Below are positions 45,990-56,566 of a stretch of DNA of 64,000 nt, piece by piece. Position 1 is the first letter of the stretch. Each line of letters starts with the position of its first letter. The stretch comes from Verrucomicrobia bacterium LW23 (GTDB lineage: Bacteria > Verrucomicrobiota > Verrucomicrobiia > Methylacidiphilales > UBA1321). The stretch is taken from contig QAZA01000011.1 of NCBI GenBank assembly GCA_003054695.1, positions 248,001 through 312,000 on the forward strand, given 5' to 3'. The notes beneath the pieces are model-generated. The model was not told the DNA's origin, searched no databases, and worked only from the letters and a program-made list of their open reading frames with translations. Both the position numbers and the translations under genes were made by a program.

Positions 45990-46145
45990 GCGCTCTCGCT
46001 ATTCGGCCGCTTAGCGGAGGGGATATCTCGCTCTAAAGGGGGTAGAAGCCGCTAAGGTGGGAGGGGAAAGGGAGGATGAGGATCGTGGAAGCGTAGCCCT
46101 TGGCGAAACTTGCCGTCATTGGCTTGTCCCGCAGGGCGGGCCCCG

Positions 46146-53627: not shown

Positions 53628-56036
53628 CTACCGCGCTCCGTGCCGCCGAAACAGCGGGCGCGCAGCCTGGGCCCGAGGCCGCAACGCCGTGCGCCATGCC
53701 AGCAAGCCCGTCTCCAGTGCAAGGAACGCAAAGGCCGCAAGCAGCAGCCACCACCACACACTCTGCGCCAAGATGGCCGGCAGCGACGTCTCCGCAGCCA
53801 CAGGCACGGCCGCGGCGCCGCTGGCCGGACGCGAAGCGTTCGCGCTGTCGCCGCCGGGAACGCCGTGCGCGACGACCCAGCTCTGGATCACCTGCGGCGA
53901 CTCGGTATAGCGCAGGTCAGACTCGCGTGGATCGGGGTTAACGTCGATAACCATGCGGTACTCGGTGGCGTTGCGTGTGCCCGGCGCAAAGGCCGCGGGG
54001 CCGGCGCTGTTGGTGGGGGATCCCGCGCCGGGGCCGTCAGAGGCGGAGGCTGGGACTGGCGCGCCTTCCAGCTCCACGGCATACTGGCCGGGCAGGTCGG
54101 GCGCGCGCACGCTCGCCTTGCCAGCCTCCAGGGGGTAGCGGGCGATGACTTCTCCCAGTGCGTGGCTCGGGCCGGTGCGAGGGGTTGGCGGAGGGGCAGG
54201 GACATCATTTGTCCCTGGCGTGCCCAGCGGAGCCCGGGGAAAGGGAGCCAGGGGCGCGGCCGCGGAGGGAAGCACGGCGGGGGCGGGGATAGCTCCGCCT
54301 GTATCGATGCGGCGCACGACTGCGGCTACCGCGTTATCGCGCTCGGCCGCAACTACTTGCACTTCTCCGGGTGTCAGGGAAAACTGCCGGCTTCCGACGG
54401 CGCGAATGTGTTGCAGGCACAAGTCGATGAACGGCAGAAAGCTCGGCTGCGTCATCCAGTCCGTAAAGCCCTTTTCAAAGCCAAACGCGGTAACCAGCAG
54501 GCGGCCTTTGGTGCGCGTGCCCTCAAACATAAGGGGCGCGCCGTTGTAGCTAAAGAGCAGGGGCACCGCCGTGGCCGATCCCAGGCCAAAATAGCGTTGC
54601 AGCGCAACACCTTGCAGATTCGCGAAGTCCGGCATGAGGAACGGCTGGAAGATGGGGTGATTCGTCGCAAAGTAGCGGAAAGCGCGCGTGTTGGTGGCGG
54701 CGGGGGCGATGGGCGCGCCCGGCCTGGGGGCCAGGGGACTCATCGGCGCCAGTTGCTCGGGCGTTAGCTCACGCGCTTCAAAGTCCAGCCCGCGCAGAAA
54801 CGCGATGGCGGCGGGGGTGAGCTGATTGGTCAGCAGCAGCACACCGCGGCCGTTGTTAAGTTGTTGCTGCACAAGGTCTCGCACCAGCAGGGAGGCCAGA
54901 TAGCCGGAGTCGACGACCAGCACGTCGCAGTCCTCAATGTGGCGCGCTTCGTCCTCAGGGTTGGCCAGATCCACCAGGCGCGTTTGCCAGCGACCCTTCA
55001 TTATCTCCGGCGAAAGCGCAACGCGCAGGAACGGCGACTGGCTGAGGAGGGAGGCGCGGCCCTCGCGCACGGGCGGCAGGCTAAAGCGCACGGAGTTGTC
55101 GGCCGCCAGCGCGTCGCCCTCGGCGTCCAGGCGCACTTCTCCCAGCGTCCACGTGTCGCGCGGGGTGGGGATGCGCAGGTGCAGCACGGCGGCGTCGGTG
55201 GGGGAGAGGAGCACGGGGCGGCTCTCCAGCATCACGCCGTTTACGCGCACCTGCAGCACTGCGCCTGGGCCAACCATGCCCTGGCGTTGCACGCGCACCA
55301 GCAGGTCCGCCTCGGGGCGGTCGCCACGGAAGATGCGGTTGAGGCCTTCGTGCGCAAGGGAGAGGTTGGGGCGCTCCGTTACGCCGGGGAAGCCGCGCAC
55401 CTGCAGGGTAACGCCGTCGAGAAAAGGCGCCGTGTTGAGCGTCTGCTCCCACTGATTGCTCTGTAAGTCGCTCAAGACAATGATGTTGCGATTCTCCCCC
55501 AGCGATTGCTGCAGCAACCCGTTTGCGGCGCGCACCGCCTCCAGAATGGGCCCGCGCGCCGCCGTTGGCTGCAGCGCGCGCACCTTGTCGACCAGCGCAG
55601 CAGGGTCGTCCGAGAACTGATGCAACACGCGCGCCCGGGAGCCCAGTTCCACCAGCGCAATCTGCACCTTGGATCCCGCACTCTGTATCTCACTCAACAG
55701 CAACTCCTTGCACTTGCCGAAATTACCACCCGCCTGCTGGCTCAGCGTGGAATCCATCACGTACACGCGGCTTTCGGAGACCTCCCGCGTCTCCGGCGTC
55801 TGCACAAACGGCCACGTAAACCCTGCAACCAGAAGTATTACCGCAAGAAGCCGAAGGAGAAGCAGCGGAATATCCTGCACCCGACGCGGCGCTACACTAG
55901 GCGTCGGCTGGTCGTCCAAAAACTTCAGCGCGGAAAAGCGAATCACCCCTGGATCCGCCCGCCGCCGCAAATGCAACCACAACGGCGCCGCCACGGCCAG
56001 CAGTCCAAGCCAAAGCCAGGGGTTAAGGAAGCTCAT
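53628..56036 (-). CDS. BatA-like membrane protein with VWA domain
   Basis: An 802-residue protein of the aerotolerance/BatA type. The N-terminus has two membrane segments around the family-typical LHLRRRADPGVIRFSALKFL (TM1 residues ~5–20, TM2 ~57–75). A von Willebrand A-like domain follows, residues ~90–230, beginning VYVMDSTLSQQ; the metal-ion site is DSTLS rather than a clean DxSxS. The central part is a large extracytoplasmic region (GxxxRALLLTNQ-like blocks) and a final membrane helix lies near residue 765 (WWWLLLAAFAFLALETGLL). ATG 56036 is the first start. Such proteins usually partner MoxR ATPases; here moxR is 5.2 kb upstream on the same strand, separated by recD2 and a Lon-like gene. 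Confidence 0.82.
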   Translation of the reverse strand: MSFLNPWLWLGLLAVAAPLWLHLRRRADPGVIRFSALKFLDDQPTPSVAPRRVQDIPLLLLRLLAVILLVAGFTWPFVQTPETREVSESRVYVMDSTLSQQAGGNFGKCKELLLSEIQSAGSKVQIALVELGSRARVLHQFSDDPAALVDKVRALQPTAARGPILEAVRAANGLLQQSLGENRNIIVLSDLQSNQWEQTLNTAPFLDGVTLQVRGFPGVTERPNLSLAHEGLNRIFRGDRPEADLLVRVQRQGMVGPGAVLQVRVNGVMLESRPVLLSPTDAAVLHLRIPTPRDTWTLGEVRLDAEGDALAADNSVRFSLPPVREGRASLLSQSPFLRVALSPEIMKGRWQTRLVDLANPEDEARHIEDCDVLVVDSGYLASLLVRDLVQQQLNNGRGVLLLTNQLTPAAIAFLRGLDFEARELTPEQLAPMSPLAPRPGAPIAPAATNTRAFRYFATNHPIFQPFLMPDFANLQGVALQRYFGLGSATAVPLLFSYNGAPLMFEGTRTKGRLLVTAFGFEKGFTDWMTQPSFLPFIDLCLQHIRAVGSRQFSLTPGEVQVVAAERDNAVAAVVRRIDTGGAIPAPAVLPSAAAPLAPFPRAPLGTPGTNDVPAPPPTPRTGPSHALGEVIARYPLEAGKASVRAPDLPGQYAVELEGAPVPASASDGPGAGSPTNSAGPAAFAPGTRNATEYRMVIDVNPDPRESDLRYTESPQVIQSWVVAHGVPGGDSANASRPASGAAAVPVAAETSLPAILAQSVWWWLLLAAFAFLALETGLLAWRTALRPRAQAARPLFRRHGAR
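54197..54217. repeat. GGGACA-N5-TGTCCC palindrome (copy 6), arms extended to 8 bases
   Basis: CAGGGACA-TCATT-TGTCCCTG inside the BatA-like gene. It is translated as part of the Pro-rich segment (TPGTNDVPA), not in a conserved domain. Confidence 0.75.
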
Positions 56037-56566
56037 GGGGTGGGATGGGGGAGGGGAGCCGCGCGGGTAAGGAGCAGCAGCGAGCGGCCCTCACTGTACA
56101 GAAGACGAGAAACGTTTGGAAGCATATCCCTAATCCCCTCGCTACCAAGACATTCCCGCTCTTGGACATCGAGAAGTTTGATGTTGACGCGCCCGCCCAA
56201 TCTACCTCAGGAGATGTACGGCATTCTGCGGATCGTGTTTTGGTCTTTAAGAACGGATCGAGAGAGATGGTTAGAACGTTTAGTGAACCTGGTTGTGACA
56301 GTACGCGAGTAAGGCCAATTCGCAAAGTTATTTGCTCTTTTTGCGGGCCGCTTTTGCGGCTATCGCCGCACTGAAACTCCGGTCGAGCATTACCCTAATG
56401 CACTCCCTCTTTTTCAGCGCACCCATAGCCCAAAATCAGCTCCGCATAAAGAGCAAATAACTTTGCAAATTGGTCTAAGAGATCTTGCCGCATGGCTGAG
56501 TGCACAATAGGAGAAGCGAAAATGCTGACCAGAAAGTCGGACGTTGGCGTTGCGAATGAGGAGCGA
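56037..56566. other. spacer holding a fold-back element
   Basis: 530 bases between recD2 and the BatA-like gene (both minus strand). About 56312–56476 is a long imperfect palindrome listed separately. The rest (56037–56311) shows no gene, although it is crossed by unrelated frames. Confidence 0.5.
56312..56476. repeat. ~165-bp imperfect fold-back (MITE-like) element
   Basis: Arms 56315–56340 (starting CCAATTCGCAAAGTTATTTG) and 56448–56473 are reverse complements at 25 of 26 positions. The centre is an inner hairpin GCATTA-CCC-TAATGC (56387–56401), whose midpoint 56394 is exactly that of the outer arms. Between them pairing continues in scattered blocks (for example 56358–56363 with 56425–56430, and 56371–56376 with 56412–56417). 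No coding frame or obvious target-site duplication was seen. Confidence 0.7.

Follow-up and report, generated by a model that had tools for sequence, protein, structure and literature searches.

The target duplication of Correia/NEMIS and Nezha-type MITEs is TA. The IS1031 group of IS5 and the Tourist/PIF-Harbinger MITEs have 3-bp TNA or TWA duplications and small palindromic derivatives, and 3-bp TNA duplications are classically linked with this IS5/IS1031-type (PIF/Harbinger-like) group. For the IS630/Tc1-mariner group, the classical target duplication is TA (PMC7386202, PMC2229807). The best-known bacterial precedent for an IS630-driven MITE is RUP (repeat unit of pneumococcus), which is about 107 bp long and is thought to be mobilised by IS630-Spn1 (PMC2229807). 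A superfamily precedent for a 3-bp (TAA) duplication is found in pogo/Fot of the IS630-Tc1-mariner group (PMC7386202).

The element studied here lies in a stretch of 64,000 nucleotides from Verrucomicrobia bacterium LW23 (hereafter, the window). Like RUP, it is a non-autonomous intergenic repeat with IS630-family-like ends and a T..A-type target (PMC2229807), but RUP targets TA, whereas the present element duplicates TNA, where each of the four bases has been observed in the middle, and the two differ in sequence, host phylum and copy structure. It resembles Correia/NEMIS, Nezha and other palindromic bacterial MITEs in being short, TIR-bounded, gene-less, multi-copy and hairpin-capable; no sequence relation to Correia/NEMIS or Nezha was found in Rfam, plasmid and genome searches. 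Unlike it, pogo/Fot are eukaryotic and duplicate TA, TAA or TAAA, not TNA. With IS1031 and Tourist/PIF-Harbinger it has in common the TNA/TWA-type duplications and small palindromic derivatives, but the transposase with matching ends in this genome is of IS630 type (DDE_3), not DDE_Tnp_1 or DDE_Tnp_4. A non-autonomous MITE, moved in trans by an IS630-family transposase and inserted at TNA, is very probably the best explanation. Its kind of mobile element is an ordinary one; it is described here for the first time in this genome, together with a probable IS630-type partner, and is unusual only in its 3-bp TNA (not TA) duplication and in the paired evolution of its two arms. In this explanation, a large and striking intergenic palindrome is the residue of a mobile element and not a gene control element. 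The features of the locus are as follows (window positions).

56313 to 56475, plus strand: 163-bp palindromic MITE of family A (GGCCAATTCGCAAAG...AATTGGTC), defined by the hairpin, 17 near-full-length genome copies and copy alignment
56310 to 56312, no strand: left target-site duplication TAA, the same as the right TAA
56476 to 56478, no strand: right target-site duplication TAA, the same as the left TAA
56313 to 56340, plus strand: left terminal inverted repeat (TIR), pairing with 56448-56475
56448 to 56475, minus strand: right TIR, pairing with 56313-56340
56381 to 56409, plus strand: asymmetric central core GGTCGAGCATTACCCTAATGCACTCCCTC, common to all arm families, from the core search of the own genome
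56567 to 58999, minus strand: recD2 helicase gene (TIGR01448, 843.8 bits), its stop 88 bp from the right duplication
53628 to 56036, minus strand: BatA N-terminal/VWA-domain gene (PF07584 and PF13519), its start 273 bp from the left duplication

The sequence-only reading had described, between recD2 and a BatA-like gene, a 165-bp fold-back at 56312-56476 with a 26-base arm of 25 matches and a central GCATTA-CCC-TAATGC centred at 56394. The arm and the centre (GCATTA at 56387-56392, TAATGC at 56396-56401) are seen in the sequence, the position agrees with the TIGR01448 and PF07584 matches, and the fold-back is borne out by RNA folding and inverted-repeat search. RNA folding, which had been proposed as a check, gave one continuous imperfect hairpin with an MFE of -80.3 kcal/mol, and none of 200 shuffles of the same segment was as stable (mean -36.9, sd 3.9; z = -11.0). 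Inverted-repeat search gave arms of 81 nt, 74% complementary and 3 nt apart (CCC loop at 56393-56395). A fold of this stability is far outside what chance gives, and the fold-back is real. Its borders shift slightly when other copies are compared: the element itself spans 56313-56475, and the A at 56312 and the T at 56476 are parts of the TAA target duplications outside it. When copies are aligned with their flanks, the element is GACCAATT...AATTGGTC of 160-163 bp, with TIRs of 26-30 bp that are near-perfect in most copies. The window copy is gene-less, being overlapped by chance ORFs only.

A search for further copies, suggested together with the folding, was made by sequence searches of the own assembly (G000, 6.61 Mb, 56 contigs), and all copy counts derive from these. 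Spread over many contigs are 17 near-full-length copies with identities of 90-100%, besides more copies at 69-79% identity and short end pieces. Core-bearing elements number about 60 in total; the core GGTCRWGCAT-N7-ATGCACTCCCTC was found at 60 places with up to 3 mismatches and at none in the reversed control. The earlier term “aged MITE” holds as to the MITE, and the age is moderate only, the window copy having 7 differences from the family consensus in 162 positions and other copies 1-11. Outside the host, 60 family and order relatives gave no convincing copy and short chance matches only (best E 0.0165 over 26 bp), and a 22-bp end searched in 387 genomes of the phylum gave only three isolated 2-mismatch matches. 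No copies were found in the plasmid search, and no match to the exact TIR pattern in the genome-contig collection. Of 16 exact family-A copies, 3 fall within a predicted ORF, compared with about 85% of positions drawn at random from the same flanks, where ORFs were predicted by a crude longest-first choice; this avoidance of ORFs is the usual MITE pattern.

By flank inspection, 15 of the 17 family-A copies have the same trinucleotide (TAA, TTA or TCA) on both sides, a count that includes L016, whose first G is missing and for which a mechanical boundary script gives 14 of 17; the remaining two read TAA/TGA. In a scripted survey of the retrieved elements of all sizes, identical flanking TNA trinucleotides were found for 32 of 40 (TAA, 13; TTA, 12; TCA, 5; TGA, 2). 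Because flanks match as inverted copies in only 2 of these 40 elements against the 32 direct matches, the 3-bp flanks represent a duplication rather than a longer palindrome. The duplication is TNA, including TCA and TGA, and not the classical TA of IS630/Tc1-mariner. In relatives, the neighbours of recD2 differ, and paralogous empty sites were compared in place of a syntenic one. The flanks of copy L002, joined without the element, have 89-90% identity to unoccupied repeats (L111 and L250) carrying a single TAA, and those of copy L013 have 78% to a paralogous empty site (L113). These target duplications and empty sites, together with an IS having related ends (described below) and the multi-copy family, support the mobile reading proposed earlier.

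Copy L002 sits within one member of a dispersed repeat (..CTTGGCGAAACTTTCCGCCC..) that is unrelated to it and about 100 bp long; this repeat is also present at L111:2123-2221 and L250:20-111 and, diverged to 71%, at window positions 46030-46121.

Concerning the transposase, the search for related ends proposed by the sequence-only reading yielded an IS630-type IS with a GACCAATT TIR and a TNA duplication, detected from two inverted TTA|GACCAATT ends at a distance of 1158 bp.

L142:910-2073 (C19:29909-31072): IS630-type IS of 1158 bp, apparently intact, with an open 361-aa transposase frame and target duplication TTA

Its TIR is GACCAATTCCATGCGTTAATCGGTA, with a 24/26 match between the two ends, and its frame matches IS630 transposase NF033545 (177 bits; cut-off 100) and DDE_3 (1e-19); PDB sequences gave no match to the transposase at E <= 0.01. 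The genome contains this IS once, inserted in another transposase-like region, and the joined flanks of the IS have 80% identity to an unoccupied paralogue. The TIRs of the MITE and this IS have in common GACCAATT and, in register, GTTA (positions 15-18) in family A or CGGTA in family C. Since the family-A TIR matches fully over the first 8-9 bp only and by short in-register blocks beyond, this IS itself may not be the mobiliser; this IS or a lost close relative probably moved the element. In addition, a 352-bp stretch at L150:155-506 has IS630-like ends GACCAATGACCAAAAGTAATCGGTA and is apparently an internally deleted relative of the IS.

Relatives of the transposase were taken from the host's class and the genome-contig collection as an independent test of the duplication. 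The nearest in that collection are mostly from Verrucomicrobiota (Akkermansiaceae, Spartobacteria). Relatives with readable ends begin with xACCA, and nine have identical TTA, TGA, TAA or TCA on both sides, although L180 and L160, whose ends are identical, could be one and the same element; in others the two flanks differ, and some lack readable ends.

L168, L169, L172, L177, L180, L185, L186, L160, L161: the nine relatives with identical TNA flanks

These ends and flanks support a putative TNA-duplicating IS630 subgroup with xACCA ends in Verrucomicrobiota. For IS630 elements with TNA duplication, nothing relevant was found in the open-access literature searched, and the subgroup is marked out by its departure from the textbook TA rule.

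The TNA duplications would also fit a MITE moved by an IS5/IS1031-type (PIF/Harbinger-like) transposase instead of IS630, and the genome has seven DDE_Tnp_1 matches. We regard such a partner as unlikely: the four IS5-type elements with readable ends have GTGTCGTCACGAG, CTAGAACCTATCTC, CTAGGGCGTGTCGTCA or CTAGAGGCTGTCGACATT, not GACCAATT, which sits on the IS630-type element, and TNA duplications occur in the IS630 subgroup too. It was rejected after a PF01609 and PF13586 search of the genome, in which no readable ends match the MITE. As a separate observation, the IS5-type end CTAGAGGCTGTCGACATT, whole or in part, lies directly beside several MITE copies (L126, L009, L119, L071), as if a favoured neighbour.

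A very stable hairpin between two co-oriented genes could also be a regulatory or RNA palindrome conserved in the recD2-bat region, for instance a terminator, attenuator or mRNA stabiliser, and an effect on transcription had been suggested before. This has become very improbable in view of about 60 dispersed copies with target duplications and empty sites. No sigma-70-type promoter was found, two terminator-like matches are near the chance range, and the Rfam covariance search assigned no family, giving only a nadA chance match of 17.6 bits outside the element; a regulatory RNA or terminator was rejected on these grounds. The earlier reading had held that a single copy conserved in all relatives would favour regulation, and the opposite was found, with many copies at home and none in the 60 relatives. 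Single-copy conservation at the recD2/bat locus in relatives was not observed. recD2 was matched over its full length in two relatives, where its neighbour is a Mur-ligase-like gene and no such element is present. A REP/REPIN-type palindrome moved by a RAYT (Y1 HUH) transposase, though likewise multi-copy, intergenic and palindromic, can practically be dismissed, since direct 3-bp target duplications, empty sites and TIRs in common with a DDE IS contradict it, and the elements are 162 bp long with GACC ends, not the GTAG/CGTC tags of REP/REPIN.

For the IS630-driven MITE, the following course can be proposed. An IS630-family transposase supplied in trans would recognise the GACCAATT... terminal repeats and excise or copy the element; insertion at TNA would then duplicate those 3 bp. 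The window copy would have been inserted in this way into the 530 bp that separate recD2 from the BatA-like gene, and it is most likely without host function at the locus.

Internally deleted elements of 58, 41, 32, 25 and 20 bp retain both ends, and the identical trinucleotide flanks are kept in 10 of 12 tested short derivatives.

58 bp: L076, L078, L081
41 bp: L079, L083, L084
32 bp: L102, L104, L105, L113
25 bp: L108
20 bp: L106

For each of the 12, a single internal deletion in family A is a sufficient explanation, with a junction microhomology of 1-4 bp and 0-4 mismatches. At different loci, copies that differ in their internal variants have the same 58- or 32-bp junction, and this recurrence suggests repeated in-place deletion promoted by the hairpin; the short forms may also have spread by their own transposition. 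In their stepwise range of lengths, the shrunken copies form a natural record of deletions associated with the hairpin.

By a paired GACCAA-end search followed by a core search, sister families have been recovered. The about 60 core-bearing elements comprise at least three arm families, all of about 162 bp, with arm signatures GACCAATTCGCAMAGTTATTTGCTC (A), ...GTTATTTGGCC (B) and GACCAATTATCGGAATAAACCGGTA (C). Recovered elements of exactly 162 bp number 31 (12, 3, 15 and 1 for A, B, C and another type, respectively).

L143-L145, L147-L149, L208-L255: sister palindromic families B and C and a few copies of another arm type, with the same core and 162-bp length and different paired arms

Consensus hairpins were folded separately, and the following counts are conditional on pairing in both. 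Between A and C, 46 pairs are common, with 31 unchanged and 15 changed on both sides; the unchanged and two-sided numbers are 46 and 6 for A and B, and 41 and 14 for B and C, and one-sided changes are zero in each comparison. Within family A, two-sided changes occur at 6 pairs (shuffled mean 2.1; 6 reached in 2 of 500 shuffles), and some are confined to a single copy, for example TTC to TGA with their partners in L010. From these counts, the two arms change together. Template-switch correction between the arms would explain this, as would a need for the ends to match, and we infer that the hairpin is kept either by correction of the arms against each other or by a requirement that they match for transposition. 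As a tentative proposal, the IS630 subgroup with xACCA ends might both duplicate TNA and drive long-hairpin MITEs with paired arms and a conserved asymmetric core, hairpin extrusion or arm-templated repair taking part in their spread or shrinkage (162 to 58, 41, 32 and 20 bp, with 1-4 bp microhomologies).

Two tandem arrangements have also been noted. At L008 (C1:124748-125080), a C-type and an A-type MITE lie in tandem with one TNA common to both, and at L010 (C12:68384-68720) an A-type MITE and an element of another arm type are arranged in the same manner, again with one common TNA.
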